From: Pseudobutyrivibrio xylanivorans DSM 14809
Lineage (GTDB): Bacteria > Bacillota > Clostridia > Lachnospirales > Lachnospiraceae
Assembly: GCF_900141825.1 (NCBI RefSeq)
Contig: NZ_FQYQ01000024.1
Span: 1 to 41,176 of the forward strand
Direction: 5' to 3'
Length of the DNA stretch: 41,176 bases
Part shown: in pieces, positions 9,470-30,816 of the stretch
How positions within the stretch are numbered: position 1 is the stretch's first letter
How the letters are laid out: each line of letters begins with the position of its first letter
Made by a program: the position numbers and the translations under genes
The notes under the pieces: model-generated
What the model was told of the DNA's origin: nothing
The model's database searches: none
The model's input: only the letters and a program-made list of their open reading frames with translations

Positions 9470-9513
9470 TAAAAAGGCACTACATCTCTTACAATGTAAA
9501 GCGCCTTTGCTTT
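9470..9513 (-). promoter_or_regulatory. Hexaloop/terminator attenuator before rocB (copy 1)
   Basis: The minus strand carries a small hairpin (9498-9513, stem AAAGC/GCTTT, loop AAAGGC). The loop is also the 5' arm of an intrinsic terminator (9470-9508, AAAGGC with GCCTTT, then TTTTT). The two folds cannot coexist. It begins about four bases after the ABC ATPase stop, and I see no promoter, so it appears to act inside the operon on read-through transcripts. It matches five other copies in the window. Confidence 0.72.
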
Positions 9514-9516
9514 CTC

Positions 9517-10260
9517 CTATATTACTTTGTCTAAAAATGTTTTAAGTCTTTCTGACTGTGGATGCTCGAAAATCTGCTCCGGTGTTCCCTGCTCAATTAG
9601 CTGGCCTGCATCCATGAAGACTACCTTGTCTGCTACTTCCCTTGCAAAGCCCATCTCATGGGTAACAACCACCATACTCATTCCCTGGGATGCCAGTTCT
9701 TTCATTACATCTAAAACTTCTCCAACCATCTCTGGATCCAAAGCTGATGTCGGTTCATCAAACAACATAATCTTAGGATTCATGCAAAGTGCTCTTACAA
9801 TTGCAATACGCTGTTTTTGACCACCTGAAAGTTGACTAGGATAAGCCGCCGCCCTATCCGCCAAACCAACTTTCTCTAAAAGCTCCATTGCATATTCTGT
9901 AGCTTCATCCTTAGACTTACCTAAAAGTCTAGTTGGTGCTATAGTAAGATTTTTTAATATGTTCATGTTAGGGAACAGATTGAAATGCTGAAATACCATT
10001 CCCATTTTTTGACGATGCTTGTTGATATCTGTCTTAGGATCTGTAATTAAAACATCATCTACAAATATATTTCCCTCTGTTGGAATCTCCAACAGGTTTA
10101 GAGAACGAAGTAATGTTGACTTTCCAGAACCAGATGGCCCTATAATTACAACCACCTCCCCCTCATCTACATTTATGGAAATATTATCCAGAGCCTTGAT
10201 TGTTCCCCCTTTATAATATTTCTTCAGGTTTTCCACTCGAATTATTTTGTTATCTTTCAT
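9517..10260 (-). CDS. Polar amino-acid ABC transporter, ATP-binding subunit
   Basis: A 247-residue ATPase of the GlnQ/ArtP type. It has Walker [11 protein letters not shown]-loop [10 protein letters not shown], signature LSGGQKQR, Walker [13 protein letters not shown] and the switch His in VVVTHEMGF. The ATG at 10260 is chosen over the longer frame at 10290 because it follows AGGAGG and overlaps the permease stop by 11 bases, the normal arrangement in these operons. It energises the permease and binding protein encoded just upstream for amino-acid uptake. The family cannot be resolved to one amino acid from sequence, but the linked arginine-type catabolic genes suggest arginine or another polar amino acid. 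Confidence 0.95.
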
Positions 10261-10981
10261 TAGCTCGTAACCTCCTTTCCAATTTTCCAACGAGATATGT
10301 TAATACAAGTACTAAAAGAAGGTAGATAGCTGCCACACCAAACAGTGGAAGAAATGCTGAAAATGTACGTCCTCGAATTAAATCTCCTGCCTTTGTTAAA
10401 TCAGTAATTCCGATATAACCTGCAATTGATGTCTCCTTAATCAATACAATGAACTCGTTGCAAAGAGCAGGCAAAACATTCTTTACCATCTGCGGAATAA
10501 TTATATGAAACATCGTCTGAAGGTAATTAAATCCTAATGAACGTCCTGCTTCAAACTGCCCCTCTGGCACAGCCATAATTCCTGCACGGATGATTTCTGC
10601 CACATAGGCACCTGAGTTAATTCCAAAAGCAAATACTGCTATCTGAACATCGTTATTTGATGTGGCAAATACAATAAAGTAAGCAATCAACAGCTGCACC
10701 ACTGTAGGTGTTCCTCGAATTACTGTCAGGTAGATTTTGCAGATTACATTACAAACACTTAATATGTAGTATCCTAGATTTTTCCTTTTCTTCAGACTTT
10801 CAATGTTCTTATCGTATGTTGAACGAATTGAAGCCACCACTGTTCCAAGAGCAATACCGATTAGCACCGCGAACAATGTAATTTCAAGTGTTACAAACAA
10901 TCCTTCAATGATTAGCTTATAGCGTTCGTTCTCAAGAAAAACAAATTTGAAATCTGAAATAAATTTACTGTGCCACATCAT
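10250..10981 (-). CDS. Polar amino-acid ABC transporter, permease subunit
   Basis: A 243-residue inner-membrane protein with about five membrane segments. It has the His/Glu/Gln-permease signature regions [12 protein letters not shown] and [11 protein letters not shown], followed by the EAA loop around [21 protein letters not shown] that contacts the ATPase. It begins two bases after the binding-protein stop and overlaps the ATPase start. It forms the translocation pathway of the importer, probably as a homodimer because only one permease gene is present. Confidence 0.94.
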
Positions 10982-10983
10982 CC

Positions 10984-11760
10984 TTAGTCCTCAGCAGAAA
11001 TATATTTGCTTACAATTGAATCAATTGTTCCATCAGCCTTAAGCTTAGCTAATGCATCATTAATCTTTTCAAGAAGCTCTTCATCATTCTTTGAAACACA
11101 GATTGCATATTCTTCTTCGGCGTATGCTGAATCAAGTAATTCAAGTCCATCATTTGCCTTTACATATGCTTTTGCTGGCTCGTTATCAATGATTACACAA
11201 TCGACCTTTCCTGAAGCCAATGCCTGAACTGCATCAGGACCTGTTTTATAACGAACAATGGCATCATCACCGTAATCTTCTGTAGCGTAGATATCACCAG
11301 TTGTGTCCTGCTGAACACCAATCTTTTTCTCTGATGAAATATCGTCAATGGACTTAATATCTGAACCACTTGGAACGATAACTGACTGAACAGCCACAGC
11401 ATATGTATCTGAGAAATTTACACTCTTTTTTCTCTCATCTGTAACTGTCATACCAGCCATTCCCATGCTGTATTTACCACTCTCTACACCCGCGATAATA
11501 GAACCAAACTCCACATCCTCAATAACAAGTTCAAAGTTCAATTCTTCTGCAATCTTTTCAGCTATCTCAACGTCAATTCCTTCGTACTCTCCATTTTCAA
11601 CGAATTCATATGGAGGGAATGTAGCATTTGTTGCCATTATCAACTCACCTTCATAGTCTCCAGCCTTTGTCACACTAGCTGCAGACCCACAGCCTGTCAT
11701 CACTGCCATAGCAACTACCAGTGTCATTATCAATGCTACTAATTTTTTTCGTTCCATCAT
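10984..11760 (-). CDS. Amino-acid ABC transporter substrate-binding lipoprotein
   Basis: A 258-residue type 3 solute-binding protein. The chosen ATG (11760) follows GGAAGG and begins a lipoprotein signal MMERKKLVALIM ending in the lipobox MTGCGS, so it would be anchored outside the membrane at the Cys. The mature part shows the family pattern FPPYEFVENGEYEGIDVEIAEKI and MAGMTVTDERKKSVNFS. It captures a polar amino acid for the permease/ATPase encoded next. An upstream in-frame extension to 11835 reads through the leader terminator and is not credible. Expression should depend on the promoter at 11874-11903 and the attenuator at 11809-11851. Confidence 0.94.
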   Translation of the reverse strand: MMERKKLVALIMTLVVAMAVMTGCGSAASVTKAGDYEGELIMATNATFPPYEFVENGEYEGIDVEIAEKIAEELNFELVIEDVEFGSIIAGVESGKYSMGMAGMTVTDERKKSVNFSDTYAVAVQSVIVPSGSDIKSIDDISSEKKIGVQQDTTGDIYATEDYGDDAIVRYKTGPDAVQALASGKVDCVIIDNEPAKAYVKANDGLELLDSAYAEEEYAICVSKNDEELLEKINDALAKLKADGTIDSIVSKYISAED

Positions 11761-11808
11761 ACCATTACCTTCCTTTTCGTTTATTAACGTAAATGCGTTT
11801 TTGAATAC

Positions 11809-11851
11809 AAAAAAAGGGCATATGTCATTTGACATATGCCCCTTTGCACAT
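11809..11851 (-). promoter_or_regulatory. Hexaloop/terminator attenuator of the amino-acid transporter (copy 2)
   Basis: A 6-bp hairpin (11834-11851, ATGTGC/GCATAT, loop AAAGGG) overlaps a strong terminator. The terminator stem GGGCATATGTC/GACATATGCCC (816-826 with 831-841 of the 11 kb block) is followed by seven Ts at 11809-11815. It lies just downstream of a near-perfect promoter and upstream of the transporter ribosome binding site. A third fold is possible: 11843-11851 also pairs perfectly with 11865-11873, which would sequester the 5' arm of the small hairpin. Confidence 0.85.
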
Positions 11852-11873
11852 CGACGTTTTATTTATGTGCAAA

Positions 11874-11903
11874 ATTATATCTATCCTTTATTTTGTTTGT
11901 CAA
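11874..11903 (-). promoter_or_regulatory. Promoter of the amino-acid transporter operon
   Basis: The minus strand has consensus TTGACA (11898-11903) and consensus TATAAT (11874-11879), 18 bases apart. Predicted transcription starts near 11867, about 16 bases before the small hairpin of attenuator copy 2. Such a strong promoter followed at once by a terminator points to control after initiation. Confidence 0.88.
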
Positions 11904-11962
11904 CAAGAATGTTTATAACACTTTTGTGTATATTTATACTGCGTTAGAAATAGATTTTATTG

Positions 11963-14539
11963 TTAATTCTTAAAGCAAATTATCCTTTCTTTTTTCATAT
12001 CATTACACAGCATAAATCCCATATTACTTACATCGTATATACGAATTATCTCCTTGAGACTATCATACTTTGAATCAAACTCCTCAAGTATATTTTTACA
12101 ATCCTTCAAAAGCTCCATGTTGAAAATCTTAGTCTTATCATTTTCAAAAATAGCATTATAAAGAATTCCTGATTCCACCAAATCCTGAAAGAAATGGCTG
12201 CCATAAGAAAGCTCCGGATTGTATCCTGCTTCAGAATTTGCAATCTCACAAATGGCCTCGAATTCGCTGATATCTGCAAATGATGTTGGCACGCCAAGCT
12301 CTGGTGAAGTGGTACCAATGCGCCCCGGCACCATAAGAAGCAGCTTCTTGCCAGAATCCCTCATCTTCCAGTTTATAGTTCCAATGGCATTTGCGATGGT
12401 ATATTTGTCCTTGTAGTCCATGTTGTAATAATTTACAGGATCCACATAGACAATCATATCAAGCTTCTCAGAACGAGACAGTCCCATTGCCGACTTCTCA
12501 CATTCGAACAGTACCTTTTCAGCTCCAATCTCATCAGGCATTTCAAAGTCTCCCGAGTCCTCAAAAACCTGCAGAGGCCGGCACTGAAGTATGTTGATTA
12601 CATAATCCCCATCCTCAGAAAAATTAATGGTAAACTCTGTATCCACAGGATAGTCATATTCCTTCTGAATTGTCCCCAATATGTCCTTCATCTGAGCCAT
12701 AATCTCCTGTTTTTCCACAATGCCCTGACAGGATATAAACTGGATATCACGGTTGTGTCCCTGTTCCCTGAATAATCGCTCCACATCAAAGTCATGCTCC
12801 AACAATAGTCGCTGAAGATAATACGGCATAAACGGCTTAATCACATCCAGCTCCACCTGCTGCAATTTTCCTTCACTTCTGTTTATCAGTTCCAGCTTCT
12901 TCTGTGAATATTTATGCTTCTCCCCACAGTCTCTTGCAGTAGTAGCCTTTGGATTATCCAAACTTACAAGTCTTGGATAGGAGCCTTCCGTTCTATCTAC
13001 TGCCGATGTTCCAAGTCCCATAACAAGGCGTAGCATTCCAGCCTCAGGGTCTAGGCTTTCCATAAATCTGTATGGACTGTAGGAATAGCCAACACCTGCC
13101 GCACAAGGCATATAATATTCACCATAATAGGAGCCTGATACTCTCTGAATCAAAAGTGCCATCTGCTCATCACGGGCCTGAAGACCACGTCTATTTCTGT
13201 AATCCAATGCAGACTTACTCATGGTGCTGGCATATACTGTTCTGATAGCATCCTCTAGCTCATTTAATCTCTGATCCATATCACCGGCATTTGGGCAGAA
13301 AACTGATTCGTATTTTCCAGCAAATGCATTTCCAAAGCCATCCTCCAGAATAGAGCTGGACCTTACGATAATTGGGTCCTGACCATAATATTCCAATAAC
13401 TTTACCAGCTCCTCTTCCATATCACGGGAAAATTTTCCATCTAACAATCGCTGAGCAAATTCATCAGCCAGACTGAAGTATTCTTCTGGCTTTCTCTGAC
13501 GCACCCTAATATCCCAAAAATGATTTTCCACAATGAATGTATAGAACACATCAGAGCCTACATAGAAGGAATCATGAGGCTCGAACTTTTCCAAAATATC
13601 AGGTCTGTTATTCTCTATTATCTTTCTTGCCAAAAGCATTCCGCATGCCTTACCGCCAATCATGCCAGTACCTATCATTCTGCTTTTCACATGAAGATAG
13701 TCCTCTGGCTTGAAGTTCTCCTTTATCATGACACGCATTCGCTCATCTCTTGTCATCATGATATTGCACATCCTGCTGCACTGTTCGGTCACATCAATGC
13801 CATTTTCATTCATGGTTGCAGTCATGTCGAAAAATCTATCCCAGCTGTCTTTGTTATCCCTGTCGGCACTGTTTGCTTCTTTTTCCAAAAGCTGATAAAA
13901 ATGGCTGGCTCTCACACCGTCAAGCATCGGTGCAAACGTCCCTGCCTCTGGCTCATAAACGTGTGGTAAAAACATTGTTTCAGAATAACGGTTCCACACC
14001 TTATCCGGTCTTACAAATACATTATTCTTGTCAGAATATACATCTAAAAACAACTGGGTTGTATCACGAATTTTTGCAATAGCTTTAAAAGAATGTTTTC
14101 CTCGAATCAGAGGGAAGAATGCAACTGTATCCAGTTGAAAAAGATATGGACAGGTCACCTGGAAGAAATTTCCCATCATAAGGTCTGTGGCCCAGGCAGT
14201 CTGTAGCTCAGAAAGGCAGTCGAAAACATAGAAGGCGTCAACGCCCTCCTTCTCAATTATTTCATGGATGTCCACTGTGAAGGTTTCAAATCTGTGGGAC
14301 AGCTCCACATTTACAATCTTCAAGCCTTCCTGTGGCTCAAACAGGGGCTCATGGCTGGCAAACCTGATATAAATCAGGTTTTTTCCATCCTCTATTGCCT
14401 GCTGCACGTATGGCCCTGCAAACAGTTTAAAATCTTTCAGACTATCCACTCGCCAAACCACATTATCCCCCAGTCGAATGTTATCAAACTGCTCATCCAT
14501 CTGTGGAATTCCAGAACACACTCTATCAAACGCTGCCAT
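11963..14539 (-). CDS. PEP/pyruvate-binding (PPDK N-domain) protein with KaiC-like N-terminus
   Basis: An 858-residue protein. The middle (about 290-640) resembles the nucleotide-grasp domain of pyruvate phosphate dikinase/PEP synthase: GMIGGKACGMLLARKI, then DPIIVRSSSILEDGFGNAFAGKYES. I find no phospho-histidine swivel motif (TSHAAI type) or PEP-binding barrel, so it is not a complete PPDK or PEP synthase. The first 230 residues look KaiC/RadA-like (SGIPQMDEQFDNIRLGDNVVW) but have no GxxxxGKT at the expected place. The ATG at 14539 follows GGGGAGG; the longer frame starts inside the attenuator. The role is unknown. The leader carries the same hexaloop element as nitrogen genes here, suggesting a nitrogen-responsive function. 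Confidence 0.75.
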   Translation of the reverse strand: MAAFDRVCSGIPQMDEQFDNIRLGDNVVWRVDSLKDFKLFAGPYVQQAIEDGKNLIYIRFASHEPLFEPQEGLKIVNVELSHRFETFTVDIHEIIEKEGVDAFYVFDCLSELQTAWATDLMMGNFFQVTCPYLFQLDTVAFFPLIRGKHSFKAIAKIRDTTQLFLDVYSDKNNVFVRPDKVWNRYSETMFLPHVYEPEAGTFAPMLDGVRASHFYQLLEKEANSADRDNKDSWDRFFDMTATMNENGIDVTEQCSRMCNIMMTRDERMRVMIKENFKPEDYLHVKSRMIGTGMIGGKACGMLLARKIIENNRPDILEKFEPHDSFYVGSDVFYTFIVENHFWDIRVRQRKPEEYFSLADEFAQRLLDGKFSRDMEEELVKLLEYYGQDPIIVRSSSILEDGFGNAFAGKYESVFCPNAGDMDQRLNELEDAIRTVYASTMSKSALDYRNRRGLQARDEQMALLIQRVSGSYYGEYYMPCAAGVGYSYSPYRFMESLDPEAGMLRLVMGLGTSAVDRTEGSYPRLVSLDNPKATTARDCGEKHKYSQKKLELINRSEGKLQQVELDVIKPFMPYYLQRLLLEHDFDVERLFREQGHNRDIQFISCQGIVEKQEIMAQMKDILGTIQKEYDYPVDTEFTINFSEDGDYVINILQCRPLQVFEDSGDFEMPDEIGAEKVLFECEKSAMGLSRSEKLDMIVYVDPVNYYNMDYKDKYTIANAIGTINWKMRDSGKKLLLMVPGRIGTTSPELGVPTSFADISEFEAICEIANSEAGYNPELSYGSHFFQDLVESGILYNAIFENDKTKIFNMELLKDCKNILEEFDSKYDSLKEIIRIYDVSNMGFMLCNDMKKERIICFKN

Positions 14540-14569
14540 AAAAACCTCCCCTAATCCAAGTCCGTATAA

Positions 14570-14610
14570 TAAAAAAGGGCGCATGCTACCTGTAGCAAAC
14601 GCCTTTGTCT
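14570..14610 (-). promoter_or_regulatory. Hexaloop/terminator attenuator before the PPDK-like gene (copy 3)
   Basis: A small hairpin (14597-14610, AGAC/GTTT, loop AAAGGC) shares its loop with the 5' arm of a terminator at 14570-14606 (outer pairing AAAGG/CCTTT, inner arm TGCTA/TAGCA, then six Ts). The terminator stem has a bulge and a mismatch, so it is weaker than other copies. It also serves as the only visible terminator for glmS, so glmS read-through and the downstream gene would be controlled together. Confidence 0.75.
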
Positions 14611-14617
14611 TTATTTA

Positions 14618-16508: not shown

Positions 16509-16569
16509 AATTTATTCCTCATCCTTTCTATGAATGACAGCTACACTGTTAAATTTATTGTTAATACCT

Positions 16570-16705
16570 ATCGCACTGTTTTTGTTTTGCAGTTACCTGC
16601 ATATTTGCCAATGCGTACGCGCTAGGCTGCACGGGAGGGCACCCGCCGAATTTTCGAAAATCCCTCCTCCTCGTTAACCAGTATTAACTGGTGCATGGCG
16701 CTAAA
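16570..16705 (-). ncRNA. glmS ribozyme-riboswitch
   Basis: About 60-195 bases upstream of glmS the minus strand shows the conserved glmS ribozyme core. It has AGCGCC at the cleavage site (cleavage between 16702 and 16701), a short hairpin ACCAGT-TAAT-ACTGGT, the TTAACGAGG segment, then GGCGGGTGCCCTCCCG, and a 3' pseudoknot-type tail with GGTAACTGC. In this family glucosamine-6-phosphate acts as cofactor for self-cleavage, which lowers glmS mRNA. The 3' boundary is approximate. Confidence 0.93.
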
Positions 16706-16763
16706 ACGAGGAATAAATACGTGATTTCAAGACCTATTAAATTTTCAATCTACAACAAAAATG

Positions 16764-16792: not shown

Positions 16793-16794
16793 TT

Positions 16795-20569: not shown

Positions 20570-21697
20570 CTATTCAGCCTCCGATACAGCTTTTTCTTTC
20601 TTGCTTCGCATTAGTTTCTTAGCACCATTTATTAATCTGTCCCAGGTAATCTCTTTACTTCCTGTAAGTCCATGGTTCCAAAAAAGTACCACCAGCATAA
20701 GAAGTAAACTAAACACAACCATTCGAAATCCATTTCGAAGCAAAGGAACATTCATGGCACCAAAGCCTGTATTTCCAATGCCTGGAATAAGTTCTGACCA
20801 GGTGTACTCTCTGTCTAAGAAACGTAACCACTCCTGCGAACCAGTTACTATAAATGCTCCCAGAATCGAACCACTTATACTTCCAATTCCACCAAGTACT
20901 ACCATCAACAAAATGTTATATGTCAAAGCAACAGTGAATGTACTTGTAACTGCTGATCTCATATATACTGCTAGAAGTCCTCCTGCCACTCCGGCAAAGG
21001 CACTTGTTACAACAAATGAAAGCTGCTTGGTTCTAAATAGATTTATTCCCATAGCTTCAGCAGCAACATCATCATCACGAATCGCTTTAAAAGCACGTCC
21101 ATAACTACTGTTCACCAAAAGAATCATAATAACAATACAGACAGCCGAAATAATAACGCATTCAAAAATACTTTTAAACTCTGGAATATTAGAAACTCCA
21201 TAAGATGCATTTGTAATTTTTCCCAAGCCATCCCAGCCAAAAATCGCTCTTATTATCTCTGAAAAACCAAGAGTTGCTATTGCCAGATAATCACTCTTCA
21301 AACGAAGCACCGGCCAGCCAATCAAGGCTGCAATTCCTGCACAGACCACTGCACATAAAATAAGAGTTACAATAAGTGGAAGCTTGATATCATGTAGCCA
21401 TGATGCCATTCCATACAGGTAGAAAATCTGGTCTCTCATCTCTACCGGAATAGTTAAGACACCAGTAATATATGCTCCAATGCACATAAAACCAGCTGTT
21501 CCAAGTGAAAACTGTCCAGTGAATCCAATAATTAAATTCATGGATACAGCTGCCACTGCATAAATACAGCTTCTTTCAATAATGGTAATTGCATAGGAAT
21601 GAACCACACTATCAGACTCCAAAATAAATAAGTATAAACAGCATAGTAAAACCGCTACTATGCTGAGTATTAAGTTTCTCTTCTCTTTTACTTTCAT
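20570..21697 (-). CDS. livM: Branched-chain amino-acid-type ABC transporter permease
   Basis: A 375-residue LivM-type permease with about eight to ten membrane segments, including GFTGQFSLGTAGFMCIGAY and the cytoplasmic coupling loop around GRAFKAIRDDDVAAEAMGIN. It ends in a charged cytoplasmic tail rich in Lys/Glu. The start has GAGGTAGG upstream and lies nine bases after livH. Confidence 0.94.
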   Translation of the reverse strand: MKVKEKRNLILSIVAVLLCCLYLFILESDSVVHSYAITIIERSCIYAVAAVSMNLIIGFTGQFSLGTAGFMCIGAYITGVLTIPVEMRDQIFYLYGMASWLHDIKLPLIVTLILCAVVCAGIAALIGWPVLRLKSDYLAIATLGFSEIIRAIFGWDGLGKITNASYGVSNIPEFKSIFECVIISAVCIVIMILLVNSSYGRAFKAIRDDDVAAEAMGINLFRTKQLSFVVTSAFAGVAGGLLAVYMRSAVTSTFTVALTYNILLMVVLGGIGSISGSILGAFIVTGSQEWLRFLDREYTWSELIPGIGNTGFGAMNVPLLRNGFRMVVFSLLLMLVVLFWNHGLTGSKEITWDRLINGAKKLMRSKKEKAVSEAE

Positions 21698-21706
21698 ATG
21701 CCTACC

Positions 21707-22585
21707 TCACACTTTCTGTACCGCTTTTTCACCAAACAAACCTGATGGTCTGAATATAAGAATAAGTACCAGCAAGGCAAAGGTAAAAGCATCACTAAAT
21801 ACTGAATAACCCATAGCCGTGATGACAATCTGGCAGATACCTACAATAAATCCTCCAATAACAGCACCCTGAATATTTCCAATACCACCTATGACTGCTG
21901 CAACAAAGCATTTCAATCCTGGAAGTGAACCGGAATAAGGCTGAACTGTATTGCGGTCTGTGAAATATAGAATTGAACCTACAGCTGCCAAGCCACATCC
22001 AATTACAAAGGTCGTTGTAATGATGTTATCAACCTTAATACCCATGATTCTTGCAGTTTCCTGATCCTTACTGCAGGCTCTCATGGCCATACCAAGTTTA
22101 GTATGATTTACAAGCATAATAAGTAGGAATGTAAGAACTATGGTAAGCACTGGGGCTATTATAGTTACTCTGGAAACACTTATATTTCCGAATGTATAAA
22201 CATGTTTTAGGATATCAATCTGAGGATAGCTCTGAGGCATTGCTGTAAAAAGATAGTTTGCAAGATTCTGTAAAAGATATGATATTCCTATGGCACTAAT
22301 CATTACTGACATACGAGGTGCACTTCTAAGTGGCTTATAGGCTATTCTCTCGATTACTACACCAAGTACGATTGTGCATAAAATGACAAAAGGTATCGCA
22401 AAATACCAAGGAAAAACAGCTAACGAAAAAATCATGAAGTATCCTGCCATCATGAATTCATCGCCATGAGCAAAGTTAATCATCCTAAGAATTCCATACA
22501 CCATAGTGTAACCAATAGCTATAAGTGCATAGGCTCCTCCAAGAGATAATCCATTCAAAAGCTGCTGCAACAAATATGAAATCAT
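21707..22585 (-). CDS. livH: Branched-chain amino-acid-type ABC transporter permease
   Basis: A 292-residue LivH-type permease with the conserved start LLQQLLNGLSLGGAYALIAIGYTMVYGILRMINFAHGD and the coupling loop MAMRACSKDQETARIMGI. The ATG at 22585 follows GGTGG. An upstream extension to 22639 is not credible, as it would cross the hairpin between this gene and the binding-protein gene. Confidence 0.94.
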   Translation of the reverse strand: MISYLLQQLLNGLSLGGAYALIAIGYTMVYGILRMINFAHGDEFMMAGYFMIFSLAVFPWYFAIPFVILCTIVLGVVIERIAYKPLRSAPRMSVMISAIGISYLLQNLANYLFTAMPQSYPQIDILKHVYTFGNISVSRVTIIAPVLTIVLTFLLIMLVNHTKLGMAMRACSKDQETARIMGIKVDNIITTTFVIGCGLAAVGSILYFTDRNTVQPYSGSLPGLKCFVAAVIGGIGNIQGAVIGGFIVGICQIVITAMGYSVFSDAFTFALLVLILIFRPSGLFGEKAVQKV

Positions 22586-22613
22586 ATAGTTTTCCACCTT
22601 ATCTATAGTTTTA

Positions 22614-22636
22614 GGGCTGTGTGTAATGCACAGCCC
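22614..22636 (-). other. Intercistronic hairpin between binding protein and livH
   Basis: Perfect 8-bp stem GGGCTGTG/CACAGCCC with a seven-base loop, starting 18 bases after the binding-protein stop and with no T-run after it. Hairpins at this place commonly protect the upstream mRNA end, so that binding protein is made in excess over permease. That role is inferred. Confidence 0.6.
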
Positions 22637-22653
22637 CATTTAACATTCAAATG

Positions 22654-23856
22654 CTATTTTTGTACTGTCTCAGTACTCTGATATGTCCATTCACCAGAAG
22701 TAATCTGGCAGATGTATGATGTATTTTTAATTGCATCACCATTAGCATCAAATTTGTATGGTCCGCATGCGTATCCTTCGCTCTCATCCAAAGCAGCCAG
22801 CGCATCTCTGATTGCCGGACCCTCTAATGAATCTGCAGCTTCGATAGCGTCACATAACAACATGTATGCATCGTAGGATACTGCGTGATTACCTACAATT
22901 GCATCTGTATCAAGGTTGGTAGCTTTTCTTGAAGCATCTGCATTGAGCCATTCCTTAAAGCCTGCATCAAATTCTGGATTACCACCCTCTGAATAGAATG
23001 TATCAGCTACAACTCCATTTGCATTATCACCAGCATCCTGAATAAGAACGTTTGAATACCAGGTATCTCCTGCAATCCACTGAACATCAAGACCTAAGTC
23101 ATGAGCCTGATTCAAAAGAAGTGGAGCATAAAGATAATCAGTAGGAGCGAATACAGCCTTAACACCGCTGTTCTTTATGTTTGTAAGAATAGCCTTAAAA
23201 TCACTTTCGTTTGTTTGGAATGTTTCCGAATCTACAACTGTACCACCTAAAACTGTGAATGAATCTGTGAAGGTCTTTACAAGACCTGATGTATATTCGT
23301 TACCGATGTTATCGATTGTAGCTACTTCTGTGAAGCCATTACTGTATGCCCAGTTTGCCATTACCTCGCCCTGGAATGGATCAAGATAACATGCTCTGAA
23401 GTAGTAATCATTTCCAAGAGTAACATTTGCATTTGTGCAGGATGTTCCGATTGCTGGAATCTTTGCATTGGAATAGTAAGAACCTGCTGCTATACATACA
23501 CCTGAACCGTATCCACCTACAACTCCAACAACGCCGTCAGCGATAAGCTTCTGTGCAGCTGTAACTGCCACTGTCTTATCTGACTGATTATCCTGCCAGT
23601 CAAGTTGAATTTTATATTCCTTACCTCCAACAGTTACGGTTGGGCGAACATAATTCGCATATTCGATAGCCAATTCTTCCTGTGCGCCACCGCCACCATT
23701 CTCACCTGTCTTTGGCTCGAAGATTCCAATCTTTATAGTATCTCCTGATGCCGCATCTGAGCCGGTTGAAGAGGACGATGAAGACGCACCACAGCCAATC
23801 AGGTTCACAGCCATCAAACATCCAAGAGCGATTCCAAACAATTTAGATCTTTTCAT
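22654..23856 (-). CDS. livJ: Branched-chain amino-acid-type ABC transporter substrate-binding lipoprotein
   Basis: A 400-residue periplasmic-binding-type lipoprotein. The signal MKRSKLFGIALGCLMAVNLIGC ends in a lipobox Cys, followed by a Ser-rich linker (GASSSSSSTGSD). The mature protein has the type 1 binding fold pattern IKIGIFEPKTGENGGGG, VVGVVGGYGSGVC and KIPAIGTSCTN. The ATG at 23856 has AGGAGG at the right distance; the longer frame to 23910 starts inside the leader. It is the first gene of the Liv operon and is controlled by promoter 23967-23995 and the attenuator at 23909-23944. Confidence 0.95.
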   Translation of the reverse strand: MKRSKLFGIALGCLMAVNLIGCGASSSSSSTGSDAASGDTIKIGIFEPKTGENGGGGAQEELAIEYANYVRPTVTVGGKEYKIQLDWQDNQSDKTVAVTAAQKLIADGVVGVVGGYGSGVCIAAGSYYSNAKIPAIGTSCTNANVTLGNDYYFRACYLDPFQGEVMANWAYSNGFTEVATIDNIGNEYTSGLVKTFTDSFTVLGGTVVDSETFQTNESDFKAILTNIKNSGVKAVFAPTDYLYAPLLLNQAHDLGLDVQWIAGDTWYSNVLIQDAGDNANGVVADTFYSEGGNPEFDAGFKEWLNADASRKATNLDTDAIVGNHAVSYDAYMLLCDAIEAADSLEGPAIRDALAALDESEGYACGPYKFDANGDAIKNTSYICQITSGEWTYQSTETVQK

Positions 23857-23908
23857 ATTACATTTCCTCCTTGGTAATTTCACTTTCGAAATGCATATAT
23901 GAATACGC

Positions 23909-23944
23909 AAAAAGGCGCCGCTAAAAATAGCGACGCCTTTGTCG
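23909..23944 (-). promoter_or_regulatory. Hexaloop/terminator attenuator of the Liv operon (copy 4)
   Basis: The small hairpin (23931-23944, CGAC/GTCG, loop AAAGGC) is followed by and overlaps a 13-bp terminator stem (AAAGGCG, CGCTA arms, loop TTTT) ending in TTTTT (23909-23940). It lies between the promoter at 23967-23995 and the ribosome binding site of the binding-protein gene. This is the cleanest copy: every base of the small stem is Watson-Crick paired. Confidence 0.86.
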
Positions 23945-23966: not shown

Positions 23967-23995
23967 ATTTTATTAGTTATGCCCATTAATGTCAA
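23967..23995 (-). promoter_or_regulatory. Liv operon promoter
   Basis: TTGACA (23990-23995), a 17-base spacer and TAAAAT (23967-23972) on the minus strand. Predicted start is near 23960, leaving about 16 bases before the small hairpin. Confidence 0.86.
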
Positions 23996-24024: not shown

Positions 24025-24951
24025 TTATAATGGTATCAATTTAAAAGCCGCTGTGTTCTGATACACTATCGGGCTATCATATTCAAAGGCTATGATGCCA
24101 TCCTCCGGTGCTGTCACAGTCTGGATGATATCACCTGTTAGTGGCTCTGTGACATGTGCCATTACCTGTCCCATGATAACCACATCTCCTGCCTGAACCA
24201 GCGATTCCATAAAGCCTGCCGAACTGGTTCTGACACTAATAAAATTATTATTGTCAATCACTTTAGACTGACATCCCTGACTGTTTTCATAATCTATTAT
24301 TTTTTCTTTTTCCAGGAATGCAAGGACTGCATCCACTCCCTGTCTGGCGCTTTTCCTGTTTATCTTTTCCGTACTGGAAGTATAAATAGAGAAGGCAAAG
24401 GTGTCCCAGATTTGCCAGTTGTAGTTTAGGGTTGCTGTATCAAAGGGTCTTGGGTTGTGAAGTACCACAAATGGTAATCCGAACTCCTTCGCCATCTCCA
24501 CGTTTTCATTTCCAGTTTTCATGATTCTTACCTGCGGCACAAAATGCCCTGGCATATAAAAGGATGCAAACTGAATTCCATATCTGTAATCCTTTATCTG
24601 GTTAAATATTCCTGCAGCGATTCTCTGTGTGGTCTCGCCTTTATCATATCCTGGAAACATCCTGTTTATATCTGTATTGTCAATGCTCCAGAATCGTTTC
24701 TTGATATTTACAGAATATGGATTTCCGCAGGAAACTACCATGATTGATTTGCCCTGCCTAATCTTTCCCGCTTCTTCAAGCTTCTTTAGTTCCTTTATCA
24801 ACAAGCTGCACACGTATATCTGCTGGTATTCGTTACCTCTCAGACTTCCAACGATGCAGACTGATTTTTCACCTTCTCCAAATTTAAAGCCCTTCACCCG
24901 GAAGCTGTCTCTGTATAATCCGTTAAACGAATAAATAGTTTCTTCCTTCAT
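24025..24951 (-). CDS. AstE/AspA-like protein with altered zinc site (possible pseudoenzyme)
   Basis: A 308-residue member of the succinylglutamate desuccinylase/aspartoacylase family (M14-like). Aligned by eye to its neighbour, the first zinc-ligand His is Arg38 (SLRGNE, against GIHGDE) while Glu41 is kept. The substrate-binding NR motif (INRMFPG, Asn96-Arg97) is kept. The second His position is Phe128 (IQFAS, against DIHAS), although a His at 136 lies nearby. The C-terminal beta-domain (LTGDIIQTVTAPEDGII) is intact. The start overlaps the neighbour's stop (ATGA). Loss of both His ligands suggests it no longer hydrolyses amides; it may bind the product or pair with the active copy. Confidence 0.82.
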   Translation of the reverse strand: MKEETIYSFNGLYRDSFRVKGFKFGEGEKSVCIVGSLRGNEYQQIYVCSLLIKELKKLEEAGKIRQGKSIMVVSCGNPYSVNIKKRFWSIDNTDINRMFPGYDKGETTQRIAAGIFNQIKDYRYGIQFASFYMPGHFVPQVRIMKTGNENVEMAKEFGLPFVVLHNPRPFDTATLNYNWQIWDTFAFSIYTSSTEKINRKSARQGVDAVLAFLEKEKIIDYENSQGCQSKVIDNNNFISVRTSSAGFMESLVQAGDVVIMGQVMAHVTEPLTGDIIQTVTAPEDGIIAFEYDSPIVYQNTAAFKLIPL

Positions 24952-25925
24952 ACCTGATTCTCCAATAATACTTTTTCTTTGAGAATTCGTCCCATCAGAG
25001 AACCTTCTTCAACTACTGGGTATTCCCTGACTGTAAAAATCATCCCCTTCTCAGGAGCCGTTATTTCTGCCAATACAGCCCCACTTAATGGATTAATAAT
25101 TTTGCCTACAGATTCTCCTTTTTTCACCCTGCTTCCATGGTCCTTTTCCTTCATGTAAATTCCGGAACAAGGAGCATTGAGATAGCATACATCTTCTCCA
25201 TCGGCGTCATATGCTACTATAGCATTTCTTATTTCAGGCACCTCTCCAGTCCATATTCCCAATTCGCTCATAAGAGAAAAAATACCGTCTGTAAGCTGAT
25301 TTCCATATTCTTCTGTGATTCTCATACCCACCCCCATTTCCACAACAAGGGTCTTCGTTCCTTTGCTGTTAAGTGAATAGGCAAGAGTAGATTCCAAAAC
25401 TGTGCTGGCACCATGTACCCATATCAAATCCATATTTGCTTTCTTTGCTATAGGTACAAGTACATCAGCATTCAATTCGTTTATACGAATCTGTGGAACC
25501 TCTGTAAGGAAAATATTGCTGGCATGAATATCTATTACAAGATCTGCTCCCTCCAGTTCCTCAATAATTTTGTATGCCAGATACTCATTCATATCTCCAT
25601 CCAGATTGCCTGGAAAAATTCTATTCATATCCAGGTCAAAAGCTGGAATTCCTCTTGTAATGGAATCAATTCCAAAGGGATTCATCGCCGGATATATATC
25701 GACTATGCCGTTTAAGCTATCAACCTGCTCCCTAATCCTCCTAGATAGCTCATAGCACACATACTGTCCCTCCAATTCATCCCCATGGATTCCGGTCACT
25801 ATGCATATTCTTTTCTGTCTCTTCTTCCTGTCAGCCATGAATCTATGCTTCGTAATTACGAATCTCTCATCCACAGGAAGCGACAGCCTCACTACATCTT
25901 CAATTGATTCCAACAATTCCTTCAT
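24948..25925 (-). CDS. AstE/AspA-like zinc deacylase (M14-like)
   Basis: A 325-residue succinylglutamate desuccinylase/aspartoacylase-family hydrolase. It keeps the zinc site HxxE (His47, Glu50 in GIHGDELEG) and the second His (His134 in DIHAS), plus the substrate-binding Asn101-Arg102 in DMNRIFPG. The C-terminal domain carries LSGAVLAEITAPEKGMIF. Family enzymes cleave N-acyl amino acids or amide bonds next to a carboxylate. The ATG at 25925 lies within the end of the transglutaminase-like gene (26-base overlap). It would supply the hydrolytic step in an operon that otherwise encodes ligase-like proteins. Confidence 0.88.
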   Translation of the reverse strand: MKELLESIEDVVRLSLPVDERFVITKHRFMADRKKRQKRICIVTGIHGDELEGQYVCYELSRRIREQVDSLNGIVDIYPAMNPFGIDSITRGIPAFDLDMNRIFPGNLDGDMNEYLAYKIIEELEGADLVIDIHASNIFLTEVPQIRINELNADVLVPIAKKANMDLIWVHGASTVLESTLAYSLNSKGTKTLVVEMGVGMRITEEYGNQLTDGIFSLMSELGIWTGEVPEIRNAIVAYDADGEDVCYLNAPCSGIYMKEKDHGSRVKKGESVGKIINPLSGAVLAEITAPEKGMIFTVREYPVVEEGSLMGRILKEKVLLENQV

Positions 25926-26712
25926 CAACAACCTCTTCCACAACCACATTGACGTCCTGAATCTGAGTTACATTTCCGATGAATATCCCCTGATTTACAA
26001 GACAATCCTCTGAATCTCTTCCGTTAGATATTTTGATATATTCATCTCCCACAAGCTTATAATTGGTTGGATCAAACCCTAGCCATTTTCGGTCATTCCA
26101 TATCTCTACCCAGGCATGTGATAGTCCCTCTCCCATCATCATGCCTGCAACATAGCGACACGGTATACCTTCCATTCTGCAAAGAGAAAGCATGATATGT
26201 GCATAATCCTGACAAACACCGCTCCCGCCAGTAAGTGCCTCCTCCGAGGTTGTAGACATATTTGTAACCCCTTGCACATACTGAAAAGAATTACTTAACC
26301 CTTCCATAATAGCTGATGCCTTATCAAGAGCTGAGTCAAATCTTTTCAAATCAAGCTTCTGATAATACTCCAAAGTCCTAAGTCCTGGCTTTGTCTTTGG
26401 CGTTTGATATTTAAATATACCTATCTTGTGAAGTTCATCTGCTTTCTCGTACTCTTCTCTGCCAGTTACGGCAATTCCATTTACATCAAATCCGAAACTG
26501 TTATGGAGCTCATTTGTATATCCAAATAAGGTAATGTTTCCGTAGGAATCCTCATCCTCACTGGTCACATTATCTGGATATACCTCCACCGACATATTTT
26601 CGATTTTTTGTAAATCATTATCATGTGGAACACACTTAAGTGAAAATCTATGATTTTTTACGTAGTCACTAAAAGTAAGCTTCATATGATAGCCAAACTG
26701 TAGCTTTTTCAA
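25900..26712 (-). CDS. Transglutaminase-like cysteine protease/amidase domain protein
   Basis: A 270-residue protein with an N-terminal beta-rich domain (about 1-115, the bacterial transglutaminase N-region) and a transglutaminase core. The catalytic triad is visible: Cys167 in GSGVCQDYAH, His199 in LSHAWVEIW and Asp214 in GFDPTN. Such proteins usually act as peptidases or amide-transfer enzymes, and this subtype is typically found beside alpha-E and circularly permuted ATP-grasp genes. The start is TTG overlapping the previous stop (TTGA). No signal peptide is present, so it should act in the cytoplasm. Confidence 0.9.
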   Translation of the reverse strand: MKKLQFGYHMKLTFSDYVKNHRFSLKCVPHDNDLQKIENMSVEVYPDNVTSEDEDSYGNITLFGYTNELHNSFGFDVNGIAVTGREEYEKADELHKIGIFKYQTPKTKPGLRTLEYYQKLDLKRFDSALDKASAIMEGLSNSFQYVQGVTNMSTTSEEALTGGSGVCQDYAHIMLSLCRMEGIPCRYVAGMMMGEGLSHAWVEIWNDRKWLGFDPTNYKLVGDEYIKISNGRDSEDCLVNQGIFIGNVTQIQDVNVVVEEVVDEGIVGIN

Positions 26713-27383
26713 AGCTCCTCACCTACCAATTGTTCAATCTCATCTGTTAACGTCTCATAAGGCATATCATCCAACTGGACCAGATAATTTATGTGTGCCA
26801 TCCTCGTACTGTCATATCGCATGGTGCTTTTATCGATACGATTAGTCAGTCTTCTTGTCTCCTTACGAATCCTCTCCGGAAATACTTTTAATCGTGAATA
26901 TAAATCAATTCGTTCCACAAGCTTACCAACACGTATCATGTTCCGTATTGAGGACTCCTCAATGTCATCATCCGCCATTCCCCAGAATGCAGCTATATTG
27001 TCCGTCACATGCTGCAAGCCAATTAATGGTGATTTGTTAATTGCCGCCTGATTCATGGCATATACCGCCAATTGGATATATGAAAGGGATTCACTTCCGA
27101 TTTCTTCCCTTAGCACAATCGCATTATCATAGGCCCTCATCAGGTTAGAAAAGATTGAATTCTCATCCTCCAAAGAAAAGCAATATCTAGCGACAAAATC
27201 CTCCTTGCTCTTGTAGATGTTTGGAATATCCTGACTTTCACAGAACTTTTCGTACTCCAAATCATCAATATCAATCATTGAATCAAATCTGGCCTCAAAA
27301 ACCTTTATAGTTGTATACACTCGCTCTGTATATCTGCCAAGCCAGTATAATCTGTCTGTGTTCTCTACTGAGATAATACCCAT
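26709..27383 (-). CDS. Alpha-E (DUF403) domain protein
   Basis: A 224-residue, mainly helical protein of the alpha-E family, recognised by its start SVENTDRLYWLGRYTERVYTTIK and the later IGLQHVTDNIAAFWGMADD region. It has no known catalytic activity and is nearly always encoded with a circularly permuted ATP-grasp and a transglutaminase-like protein, as here. The start has GGAGGAG upstream and overlaps the ATP-grasp gene by 19 bases. Confidence 0.88.
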   Translation of the reverse strand: MGIISVENTDRLYWLGRYTERVYTTIKVFEARFDSMIDIDDLEYEKFCESQDIPNIYKSKEDFVARYCFSLEDENSIFSNLMRAYDNAIVLREEIGSESLSYIQLAVYAMNQAAINKSPLIGLQHVTDNIAAFWGMADDDIEESSIRNMIRVGKLVERIDLYSRLKVFPERIRKETRRLTNRIDKSTMRYDSTRMAHINYLVQLDDMPYETLTDEIEQLVGEEL

Positions 27384-28723
27384 GTATCTTTAAATCCTCC
27401 TCCCTGAGAAGAATTAACAATAAATGAATCTGGATTTCTGGAAAATCTGGTCAATCCACTTTTCCATACCATTGGTTCATCCCCCATAAGTACAAAGGCT
27501 CTCAAGTCCGCTTTTCTTGGAAGAAGCTCGCATTTTTCCATGATATCGATATCCAGAAAATCTATAACCTCCTGTGCAATAAATCTTCGAGGCTCACTCT
27601 TCAACATCTCCTTGAAGTTTACTTTTTCCTCTGAACTCATCTTGCTGCCGAACACTACTCCGTAACCACCAGCCTCTGCCACATCCTTTAAAACTAGCTT
27701 GTCAAAATTCTCCAGCACATACTTCATATCCTCTTTGTAATATGGTAAATAGGTTGGTGCATTCTGTAATATTGGTTCCTCTCCCAAATAATATTTCACC
27801 ATCTTTGGAACAAAATAATATATTCCCTTATCATCAGCCACACCATTTCCTGGTGCATTGATAAGTGCAACATTTCCCTTTCTGTAAATATCAAAAATGT
27901 GAGGAATGCCAATTACTGAATCCTTCCTAAAGGTCATTGGGTCAAGATATTCATCTGATATTCGTCTGTATACAGCTCCTACTCTCTCTTTACGTCCAGA
28001 ATAATCAATAAAATACAAGTGATCATTTTCAACTATCAGCTCGTGTCCAGAAGCCAAATGCGCACCTGTCTTTTCTGCAAGATACGAGTGTTCAAAATAT
28101 GCTGCATTATATCTGCCTGGAGTCAAGATGACCGTGTGTCCTCCCACATTCACATGGTCCATAGTACGACGTAGCATAGCGGCATAGTTTCTGTTGTCTT
28201 CAACATGTTTTCCCGTAAAAAGATCCGGTGAGCTTCTTCTGGAAATCATTCGCGCAATCATTGGGTAAGATGCGCCTGAAGGGATTCTTAGGTTATCCTC
28301 CAGAACATACCAGTCTCCATCCTTCGCCTGAACTAAATCAATACCTGCTATGTGGGCATATATTCCCTTTGGTGGCTTAATTCCATCGCACTGAGGTAAG
28401 TATCCGCTACCGGCATAAATGAATTCCTCCGGTATGATGCCGTCTCTAACAATATGCTTATCGCCATAGATGTCGTTAATAAAACAATTTAGAGCTACAA
28501 CTCTTTGCTTCAATCCCTTTTCAAGGTAAGTAAACTCATCCTTATCAATGATTCTTGGAATCATATCAAACGGAAAAAGCTGCTCTTTGAATTCATTGTT
28601 TTTATAAATTCCAAACTTAACACCATACCTGGCCAATTGCTCATTAACAGCCCCAGAACCTGCATAGATTTCCATATCCTCAACCCGTTCTTTTTTACTA
28701 AAAATGTCTGCGTATGTTGTCAT
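27365..28723 (-). CDS. Circularly permuted ATP-grasp protein (CP_ATPgrasp family)
   Basis: A 452-residue protein of the family formerly DUF404/DUF407. Motifs include GIDLVQAKDGDWYVLEDNLRIPSGASY (metal/ATP-binding part placed early by the permutation), AYFEHSYLAEKTG, NAPGNGVADDKGIYYFVP, VLKDVAEAGGYGVVFG and the end NSSQGGGFKDTWV. It is predicted to form amide or peptide bonds using ATP; the natural product is not known. The ATG at 28723 follows AAAGGAGG, while a longer frame to 28771 lies in the attenuator. It is the first gene of the five-gene operon ending at 24025. Confidence 0.9.
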   Translation of the reverse strand: MTTYADIFSKKERVEDMEIYAGSGAVNEQLARYGVKFGIYKNNEFKEQLFPFDMIPRIIDKDEFTYLEKGLKQRVVALNCFINDIYGDKHIVRDGIIPEEFIYAGSGYLPQCDGIKPPKGIYAHIAGIDLVQAKDGDWYVLEDNLRIPSGASYPMIARMISRRSSPDLFTGKHVEDNRNYAAMLRRTMDHVNVGGHTVILTPGRYNAAYFEHSYLAEKTGAHLASGHELIVENDHLYFIDYSGRKERVGAVYRRISDEYLDPMTFRKDSVIGIPHIFDIYRKGNVALINAPGNGVADDKGIYYFVPKMVKYYLGEEPILQNAPTYLPYYKEDMKYVLENFDKLVLKDVAEAGGYGVVFGSKMSSEEKVNFKEMLKSEPRRFIAQEVIDFLDIDIMEKCELLPRKADLRAFVLMGDEPMVWKSGLTRFSRNPDSFIVNSSQGGGFKDTWVLSQ

Positions 28724-28749
28724 GCTCTCTCTCCTCCTTTCTGTAAAAT

Positions 28750-28797
28750 AAAAAGGCGCCTCAAGCCACAATTGTGACTCAAAACGCCTTTGTTTGA
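28750..28797 (-). promoter_or_regulatory. Hexaloop/terminator attenuator of the ATP-grasp operon (copy 5)
   Basis: The small hairpin (28782-28795, AAAC/GTTT, loop AAAGGC, extendable by TC/GA past a one-base bulge) overlaps a terminator at 28750-28791. The terminator stem can be extended to about 18 pairs with wobbles and an AATT loop before TTTTTATTTT. It also lies just after nadE, so it probably ends nadE transcripts too. The transcript from the promoter at 28802-28829 would start at the hairpin itself. Confidence 0.84.
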
Positions 28798-28801
28798 TTA
28801 A

Positions 28802-28829
28802 AGTATACGGAAATTCAAAGAATATGCAA
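28802..28829 (-). promoter_or_regulatory. Promoter of the ATP-grasp operon
   Basis: TTGCAT (28824-28829), a 16-base spacer and TATACT (28802-28807) on the minus strand, in the gap after nadE. Predicted start is near 28795, within the 5' arm of the small hairpin. Confidence 0.7.
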
Positions 28830-28839
28830 CCGTTTTCTA

Positions 28840-30756
28840 TTAAATTATCTCAATTTCTTTCATCCAGAGATTTACTGCTGCATCACTTGGCATTCTGAAA
28901 TCTCCTCTTGGAGATAAAGTTACCGTACCAACCTTTGGTCCATCTGGCATACAGCTTCTCTTGAACTGCTGAGTGAAGAATCTCCAGTAGAATTTCTTCA
29001 ACCATTTAAGGATTTCTTCACGACTGTAGTCACCATCAAAGGATTTTTGTGCAAGCCTGAAAATCTTTGATGGTGAAAATCCAAAGCGAAGCATGTAATA
29101 CAAGAAGTAATCATGAAGCTCATATGGTCCCACCAAGTCTTCTGTCTTCTGTGAAATCTTTCCATCTTCATCTGGTGGAAGAAGCTCTGGGCTGACTGGT
29201 GTATCAAAAATATCTTTTAGTGTACTGCTGAGAATTCCCTCTGTTCTGTTTGCCTCATATTCCACAAGCCATCTTACAAGTGTCTTTGGGATAGACGAAT
29301 TGACAGCGTACATTGACATATGGTCCCCATTATAGGTAGCCCATCCCAGGGCTAGCTCTGATAAATCACCTGTGCCAATTACGATTCCACCAAGCAGATT
29401 TGCCTTATCCATAAGAATCTGGGTGCGCTCTCGCGCCTGACCATTCTCGTAGGTGACATCATGATTATTACTATCCTGACCAATATCTTCAAAGTGCTGG
29501 CTGACACTTGCTTTAATGTTAATCTCCTCAAGGGTTGTGCCATATGCTTCTGCTAGTCTGCAGGCATTGGTGTAGGTTCTGTCTGTAGTACCAAAGCATG
29601 GCATTGTAATGCAGTGGATTCCCTTTTTATCAAGTCCCAATCTGTCATAGGCCTGAACTGTAACAATAAGAGCAAGTGTAGAATCAAGACCGCCAGACAA
29701 ACCAATAACCACATTTTTGCAACCAATATGTCTGATTCTAGTCATGAGACCTACTGCCTGCATAGTAAGAATCTCCTCACATCGGCTTTCCAAATCATAT
29801 TTTACAGTAGGAACGAATGGTGTCTTTGGTGGAGCAAATGTTATCTTTGTCTCCACTGGCTTTAATGAAAACTCTGCCTGATGACTTTCACAATCCGTAT
29901 TTACGATAAATGTATTCATGCGCCTGCGTTCGTGTACTAATCTATCCACATCCACATCTGCGATTATCATCTCATTATCAAAGATTTTTGATTCCGCATA
30001 TACAGTACCATTTTCTGCAATGATATTATGACCTGCAAAAACCATATCCTGTGTAGACTCTCCCACACCTGCATCTGCATAAGCATAGGCACACAGAAGA
30101 CTTCCTGATTTTGCCTTAATAAGATTTTTTCTGTAATCAGCCTTTCCAATCACTTCATCACTGGCTGAAAGGTTGAAAATAATAGTAGCCCCGCTTTTTG
30201 CCAATTTTACTGATGGTGTATCTGCAACCCAAAGATCCTCGCAAATCTCGATACCAAATTTCAGATTGCTTATTTCTTTGCAGGCGAATACCTGATTACT
30301 ACAAAGAACTGCAAAGCCTGCAGCGCCAAAGCTAATCTCTTCCATAAGGCTGTCATCTGCAGGAGTGAAATGTCTCAGCTCATAAAACTCACTGTAGTTT
30401 GGAATGTTCTTTTTAGCTGTAGCTCCGAGAACTTTTCCACCTTTAATCACTGCTGCAATATTATAAAGCTTTCCTTTCACCTGATATGGCAATCCAACTA
30501 TAGAAACGATGTCCAAATCTGCTGTGGCACCAGCAATATCCGCCACTGCCTTCACTGCACCTTTAAGCAAAACATCTTGTAAAAATAAATCTCCACAAGT
30601 GTATCCAGTTATGCCTAATTCTGGGAAACAGATAATCTTTACACCCTGCCCCTCAGCTTCCTTTATCAATCTTACTATCACATCCGCATTGTGCTCAGTA
30701 TCAGCCACCTTAATGTCTGGTGTAGCACAAGCAATTTTTATAAATCCGTCTTTCAC
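28840..30756 (-). CDS. nadE: Glutamine-dependent NAD+ synthetase
   Basis: A 638-residue two-domain enzyme that amidates nicotinic acid adenine dinucleotide to NAD+ using glutamine and ATP. The N-terminal nitrilase-like glutaminase (about 1-280) has Glu46 in CFPELGITGY, Lys in KKNIPNY and the nucleophile Cys in GIEICEDLWV. The synthetase domain has the ATP loop GLSGGLDSTLAL and later GTGDLSELALGWATYNGDHMSMYAVN. The start is GTG with GGAAGG nine bases upstream. It is transcribed alone from a promoter in the divergent gap with the alanine symporter and controlled by attenuator copy 6. Confidence 0.97.
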   Translation of the reverse strand: MKDGFIKIACATPDIKVADTEHNADVIVRLIKEAEGQGVKIICFPELGITGYTCGDLFLQDVLLKGAVKAVADIAGATADLDIVSIVGLPYQVKGKLYNIAAVIKGGKVLGATAKKNIPNYSEFYELRHFTPADDSLMEEISFGAAGFAVLCSNQVFACKEISNLKFGIEICEDLWVADTPSVKLAKSGATIIFNLSASDEVIGKADYRKNLIKAKSGSLLCAYAYADAGVGESTQDMVFAGHNIIAENGTVYAESKIFDNEMIIADVDVDRLVHERRRMNTFIVNTDCESHQAEFSLKPVETKITFAPPKTPFVPTVKYDLESRCEEILTMQAVGLMTRIRHIGCKNVVIGLSGGLDSTLALIVTVQAYDRLGLDKKGIHCITMPCFGTTDRTYTNACRLAEAYGTTLEEINIKASVSQHFEDIGQDSNNHDVTYENGQARERTQILMDKANLLGGIVIGTGDLSELALGWATYNGDHMSMYAVNSSIPKTLVRWLVEYEANRTEGILSSTLKDIFDTPVSPELLPPDEDGKISQKTEDLVGPYELHDYFLYYMLRFGFSPSKIFRLAQKSFDGDYSREEILKWLKKFYWRFFTQQFKRSCMPDGPKVGTVTLSPRGDFRMPSDAAVNLWMKEIEII

Positions 30757-30773
30757 TTTAGTGTTCCTTCCCG

Positions 30774-30816
30774 AAAAAAATAAAAGACGCCCGCTAAAAA
30801 GCAGACGTCTTTGTCT
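30774..30816 (-). promoter_or_regulatory. Hexaloop/terminator attenuator of nadE (copy 6)
   Basis: The small hairpin (30803-30816, AGAC/GTCT, loop AAAGAC) overlaps a 13-pair terminator (AAAGACG with CGTCTTT, loop TTTT) followed by TTTTATTTTTTT (30774-30812). The gene upstream is divergent, so this hairpin cannot be the terminator of another minus-strand gene. This is the best evidence that the elements act as leaders. Confidence 0.86.

Follow-up and report, generated by a model that had tools for sequence, protein, structure and literature searches.

The stretch analysed here (the window) is a whole contig of Pseudobutyrivibrio xylanivorans DSM 14809, NZ_FQYQ01000024.1, 41,176 bases of a 3.4 Mb genome. 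Read directly, its minus strand holds six copies of one leader element, a 4-6 base pair (bp) hairpin with a hexaloop, overlapped by an intrinsic terminator with a U-tract. An earlier note on this DNA had located all six, and both its positions and its loops are correct, with AAAGGC in four copies, AAAGGG in one and AAAGAC in one. In every copy the terminator's 5' arm is made up of the hexaloop and the 3' stem strand of the hairpin, so that hairpin and terminator are mutually exclusive and the hairpin is a putative antiterminator.

The hairpin with the lowest coordinates, AAAGC[AAAGGC]GCTTT (9498..9513; all features given here are on the minus strand), lies upstream of rocB, a RocB-like M20 peptidase gene (7825..9480), and overlaps a terminator at 9470..9508. 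It is placed within an operon, a few nucleotides (nt) past the stop codon of the upstream gene for an ATP-binding cassette (ABC) ATPase, and the real rocB start is probably downstream of the terminator. ATGTGC[AAAGGG]GCATAT (11834..11851; terminator 11809..11845) precedes a polar amino-acid ABC importer (SBP3) made up of SBP_bac_3 protein, permease and ATPase (9520..11835), and a predicted promoter, TTGACA-18-TATAAT at 11874..11903, ends 24 nt upstream of its 4-bp hairpin stem. The start of this leader (11834-11875), TTTGCACAT, is able to base-pair with the ATGTGCAAA part of the hairpin, which may give a third fold. Between glmS and a PPDK-like gene stands AGAC[AAAGGC]GTTT (14597..14610; terminator 14570..14606), whose stem, AGAC/GTTT, has one G.U pair; the PPDK_N-domain protein gene (11966..14584) probably also has its real start downstream of the terminator. 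A glmS ribozyme at 16562-16713 precedes glmS, the gene upstream of this attenuator, placing two unlike leader controls in series.

CGAC[AAAGGC]GTCG (23931..23944; terminator 23909..23940) precedes a branched-chain amino-acid (Liv-type) ABC importer with a Peripla_BP_6 binding protein, two BPD_transp_2 permeases and two ATPases (19078..23910), with a predicted promoter, TTGACA-17-TAAAAT at 23967..23995, ending 22 nt upstream of the hairpin. The promoter predicted for the next site, TTGCAT-16-TATACT at 28802..28829, ends 6 nt upstream of AAAC[AAAGGC]GTTT (28782..28795; terminator 28750..28791), which precedes an operon for CP_ATPgrasp, Alpha-E, a transglutaminase and two AstE/AspA-type proteins (24028..28771). 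CP_ATPgrasp and Alpha-E genes also lie downstream of an element in a locus from the family set (L337). The last hairpin, AGAC[AAAGAC]GTCT (30803..30816; terminator 30774..30812), precedes a NAD synthetase with an amidase (CN_hydrolase) domain (28843..30756), and its predicted promoter, TTGAAT-17-TAAAAT at 30826..30854, ends 9 nt upstream.

A composite scan for C[A..G..]G on stems of at least 4 bp, with an overlapping terminator, returned seven composites in the window, whereas 60 dinucleotide shuffles averaged 0.33 and never exceeded 2; the seventh, at 13943 within the PPDK coding region, is probably a chance match. The same element stands in many orthologous leaders of the genus. A pattern of loop plus U-tract occurs in 26 of 29 genus genomes, with 84 matches against 6 for the reversed pattern, and a search of genome contigs with the single query P0001 gave 17 loci. 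Among 35 distinct hairpins three of the four stem pairs change on both sides, and the stem covariation score is 0.826 as compared with 0.198 after shuffling. Because these 35 had been preselected for pairing, A1/G4 and a G-C closing pair, two tests free of that selection weigh more. When the loop-plus-U-tract pattern was applied to the fetched loci with only the closing C of the 5' arm fixed, stem positions 2-4 were paired in 62 of 65 sites with a strong terminator, and the stem was paired in 1 of 6 matches without a terminator. Across 25 distinct stems, position 3 paired in 96% and position 4 in 88%, against 41% and 46% with partners shuffled. The pairing is not an artefact of selection. Position 5 pairs at chance level, and the stem is thus 4 bp.

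As most scans demanded A1 and G4, the constancy of these bases was tested separately, without constraint on the loop, in leaders chosen by their place before particular genes (gltB, asnB, amtB and the type-I glutamine synthetase gene, GSI or glnA). Some hexaloop hairpin-terminator was present in 36 of 42 such leaders, and one of the C[A..G..]G form in 35 (gltB 5/5, asnB 10/10, amtB 8/8, GSI 12/19). A1 and G4 were found in 21 of the 22 leaders that have exactly one hexaloop hairpin-terminator. Several leaders contain other loop sizes as well, hexaloops not being the sole structures. The statement in the earlier note that A1, A2, A3 and G4 never change is true of the six window copies but not of their relatives, in which positions 2, 3, 5 and 6 vary (AATGGG, AAGGGC, ATGGGC, AAAGAG). 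At family level, the scan detected the element in 7 of 20 glnA leaders; by eye it was also clear in three others (L222, L223, L230) and present in imperfect form in two more, L239 and L235, the latter with G as its first loop base. The element also precedes a RidA-type (Ribonuc_L-PSP) gene in two genus loci (L178, L195; Pfam was run on L178 only), and paired hexaloop-terminator modules within about 100 nt occur before CTP synthase (L333), before amtB (L327) and in G225:C5.

The earlier note had proposed a covariance search, and such a search extended the set. The model, R1, was built from 31 genus leaders, six of them from this genome, with the 4-bp antiterminator stem as its only structure. 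It returned ten sites at E<0.01 in the P. xylanivorans genome, where 150 of 952 first-look candidates were scored; the lowest of the ten reached 24.3 bits and the next best match, 18.6 bits, leaving no further copy above that score at unrelated genes. Six are the window sites and four lie on contig 28, where scan and pattern found them too, and all ten fall in two clusters. The contig 28 hairpins stand in the leaders of gltB, asnB, an AmtB-PII fusion and GSI, identities that Pfam confirms, within the gene order gltB-gltD-asnB-GSIII-amtB/PII-GSI-ANTAR. The matches thus lie in nitrogen leaders, as had been anticipated, and in those of the six window operons, where the list of genes also held: the polar and Liv-type importers, the RocB-like M20 peptidase, the PPDK_N protein, the CP_ATPgrasp/Alpha-E/transglutaminase operon and NAD synthetase. 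The AmtB protein, of 581 amino acids, carries its PII domain as a C-terminal fusion (locus L002, 11352-13097, minus strand). Directly upstream of the amtB hairpin a palindromic, repeat-like stretch was seen by eye (L002, about 13165-13270, minus strand, and L162), and sequences upstream of this hairpin differ strongly between species, again by eye.

Simpler patterns were less discriminating. A looser genome pattern matched 57 times and its reversed control 31 times, and on visual inspection most of the matches lacked such a terminator; a stricter one had a sizeable reversed control at family level, and the covariance model was therefore relied on instead. A gathering-level Rfam scan returned no leader RNA at the sites, with only glmS, tRNA and rRNA in the window and nothing in loci L002 and L003. 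The contig ends (1-92 and 40928-41176, minus strand) are within rRNA genes, and eight tRNAs lie at 39992-40852.

An ANTAR gene, which the earlier note expected, is present as a single match in the genome (PF03861, 1.6e-16, 60.3 bits against a cut-off of 27.3). It is the last gene of the gltB...GSI cluster, directly after GSI, and in a sequence search of the PDB its product matches Rv1626, EutV, AmiR and NasR. Among the EutV residues with described RNA contacts (PMC8934654), K149, E160 and M172 are retained in all 85 aligned ANTAR relatives; position 164, whose Tyr stacks on G4 in EutV, is His in this protein and His, Tyr or Phe among relatives. The phospho-acceptor Asp54 is lost, with Asn in its place here and in 26 of the 27 genus members, the other having a gap; Asp is found at that position in 0 of 29 family members and 13 of 29 members from the class search. 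One ANTAR match each was found in 28 of 29 genus genomes, and a GSI-like gene lies directly upstream of the ANTAR gene in 20 of 20 fetched family loci.

Motif and protein also occur together. In the family, R1 matches 90 of the 131 genomes that have ANTAR and 2 of the 19 that have none (Fisher 1.6e-6, kinship uncorrected); in the class the counts are 35 of 54 and 5 of 45 (Fisher 3.9e-8, kinship likewise uncorrected); search filters were stricter for genome sets of more than 40. Downstream of the best 29 family loci are genes for GSIII, gltB, asnB, amtB, PII, GSI and glutamate dehydrogenase (gdhA), together with CTP synthase, an amidophosphoribosyltransferase-like protein, PPDK and CP_ATPgrasp.

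We consider it highly probable that the ten detected sites form a single-hexaloop ANTAR antitermination regulon, nitrogen-regulated and run by the genome's single ANTAR protein. By default, the leader RNA would fold into the intrinsic terminator, whose 5' arm would begin at the hexaloop sequence (AAAGGC in the majority), and transcription would stop early with release of a short RNA. In the active state, the ANTAR protein would recognise the 4-bp hairpin, with A1 and G4 of its hexaloop and its closing C-G pair, as it exits the polymerase. The hairpin held in this way would sequester the terminator's 5' arm, giving read-through into genes of nitrogen assimilation and scavenging. We infer both the binding and the read-through from sequence, and nitrogen scarcity would presumably be the signal. 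With one hexaloop per site, often at the 5' end of the transcript, no upstream recruitment hairpin would be used, and the position at the RNA 5' end may itself be the recruitment device. Control would fall to a partner protein rather than a kinase, with GSI, whose gene is adjacent, and the PII domain fused to AmtB as natural candidates. More broadly, it seems likely that Clostridia, above all Lachnospiraceae, use a minimal, 5'-terminal one-hexaloop antiterminator without a recruitment hairpin. The ANTAR protein that reads it would act independently of a kinase, have its gene beside that of glutamine synthetase (GS) and probably be gated by GS or PII.

The ANTAR reading of the earlier note is supported, but it missed that published targets are dual. 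These are defined by a pair of hairpins, each with a stem of 3 bp or more and an A1/G4 hexaloop, joined in eut by a linker of 5-12 nt (PMC3369931, PMC8934654), and the upstream hairpin, P1, is needed in vivo in the eut system (PMC3369931). A canonical dual-hairpin regulon whose P1 was missed because it is degenerate or unusual, with a loop other than A1/G4 or a stem below 3 bp, is in our view improbable. Such an arrangement would agree with antitermination targets described in PMC3369931 and PMC5821096, which are dual, and with the room for P1 in some asnB leaders. It would also agree with a class locus from another Clostridia family (L277), where an AACGGC hexaloop hairpin directly before the terminator hairpin makes an arrangement that could be dual. 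By the literal published definition, however, and with no positive control, P1 occurs in the 60 nt upstream at close to the rate of chance: with a minimum stem of 4 bp, 10 of 87 leaders have one against 6.4 in mononucleotide shuffles, and minimum stems of 3 and 5 bp give 19 against 15.7 and 2 against 2.4. A single gltB-lineage hairpin that overlaps the -10 region accounts for five of the ten 4-bp cases. Of 20 class loci, 8 show a hexaloop-terminator ahead of GSI and lack a P1 in the 60 nt before it. The element would act in the manner of ANTAR antitermination, but as a second hairpin was tested for and not found, we do not place it in the dual-hexaloop target family under the existing definition.

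The predicted promoters, and hence the predicted transcript starts, argue further against a missed P1. The spacing between the end of the -10 box and the hairpin is 6-8 nt in 13 of 17 gltB leaders, 6 nt in 8 of 12 GSI leaders and in all four CP_ATPgrasp leaders, 7 nt in both PPDK leaders, 9 nt in both NAD synthetase leaders and 12 nt in all three leaders of another importer. In the remaining gltB and GSI leaders the scorer picked other sites, with a similar box at the same place in most. At family level, a promoter scoring at least 8 of 10.6 and ending no more than 15 nt before the hairpin was found in 17 of 27 leaders against 1.0 in mononucleotide shuffles. A -10 box 6-15 nt before the hairpin, as in most gltB, GSI and family leaders and in all scored CP_ATPgrasp and NAD synthetase leaders, leaves no RNA for P1. 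Since P1 and its linker need about 17 nt of RNA, they would be impossible in such short-spaced leaders, among them the CP_ATPgrasp leader of the window, and in several leaders the hairpin would be the 5' end of the RNA, provided that the predicted promoters are right. No consistent promoter was found at amtB sites and only a weak one (score 7.0) at rocB, and these sites may therefore be intra-operon. Sequences complementary to the hairpin, lying upstream of it in the GSI and SBP3 leaders, were weighed as intrinsic antiterminators and set aside, since the GSI arm falls in predicted promoter DNA and, judged by eye, is not conserved in every species. This GSI (glnA) promoter DNA is nearly complementary to the hairpin plus terminator arm (L002, about 11285-11325, minus strand), a feature seen by eye in several species, not all.

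It is very unlikely that the hairpin serves some RNA-binding protein other than ANTAR, or a metabolite, as antiterminator. Other single-hairpin antiterminator systems exist (PMC5821096), and ANTAR binding is here deduced rather than observed, but the A1/G4 hexaloop and AC/GU top pairs resemble the mutationally studied eutP hairpin, the motif follows ANTAR across genomes, and Rfam has no known leader RNA at the sites. Least credible of all are ordinary intrinsic terminators in which A-tract/U-tract symmetry accounts for the frequency of AAAGGC and the small hairpin arises by accident: terminator arms opposite a U-tract do begin with A's, which leaves A1-A3 alone as weak evidence, but the stem is present at 62 of 65 pattern-matched sites with a strong terminator and at 1 of 6 without, the window has seven composites against 0.33 per shuffle, A1 and G4 hold in gene-position leaders while loop positions 2 and 3 change, the motif co-occurs with ANTAR, and beyond the ten sites R1 found none above 18.6 bits.

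Several observations weigh against a single-hexaloop ANTAR regulon. The element is absent from 7 of 19 GSI leaders in the genus set and 8 of 20 glnA leaders in the family, and 41 of 131 ANTAR-positive family genomes have no R1 match. Conversely, two family and five class genomes have the motif without a detected ANTAR, one at E 1.2e-6; this last match lies in G216 of the class set, and G244 and G272, of the same family group, are ANTAR-positive. R142 of EutV is Met in the ANTAR protein, at a position that varies widely. The count of ten P1 cases is slightly above the shuffled mean and inside the shuffled range (maximum 13). The predicted -10 box lies 20-39 nt from the hairpin in asnB leaders, 22 nt in LivJ and 24 nt in SBP3, which leaves perhaps 13-32 nt of RNA before the hairpin, and some asnB leaders may have room for a small P1. 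Lastly, EutV needs both hairpins in vivo (PMC3369931), and a single one might be too weak.

The closest known system is EutV/eut of Enterococcus faecalis (Ramesh 2012, PMC3369931; Walshe 2022, PMC8934654), which shares with this regulon the A1/G4 hexaloop, a hairpin exclusive with the terminator, an ANTAR protein and several sites per genome. Unlike eut, with its two hairpins, the sites described here have one, often at the predicted transcript 5' end; unlike EutV, the receiver lacks the phospho-Asp, and the regulon is one of central nitrogen assimilation. Predicted nitrogen ANTAR regulons in Desulfotomaculum and elsewhere likewise have targets before glutamate synthase, glutamine synthetase, ammonium transporter and PII genes, but were found with a model that demanded two hairpins (PMC3369931). 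The missing Asp suggests a pseudo-receiver or partner-controlled ANTAR output, as in AmiR, controlled by AmiC, and NasT, controlled by NasS. AmiR is a precedent for a pseudo-receiver under partner control (PMC8934654) and NasT for an ANTAR protein controlled by NasS (PMC3795266). No counterpart of AmiC or NasS came to light in this genome, no search having been aimed at one; the AmiR target belonged to the dual-hairpin seed of PMC3369931, unlike the single hairpin here.

In titles and abstract openings searched in PMC, a scope that leaves most subscription journals outside, no single-hexaloop nitrogen regulon appeared. The gene for NitR of Clostridium, an ANTAR-type protein, lies directly downstream of glnA, as the ANTAR gene does here; to our knowledge, its RNA target and regulon have not been described. 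Nitrogen control is, as far as we know, poorly described in Lachnospiraceae, a major gut and rumen family, and the present finding supplies a concrete regulator, a target motif and a gene list. It also bears on an open mechanistic point, since both hexaloops are needed in vivo in eut, whereas the structure published in 2022 narrowed the minimal binding motif to a single hexaloop, and its authors called for study of the role of single-hexaloop motifs (PMC8934654). If our reading is true, this regulon would offer many natural single-hexaloop cases.

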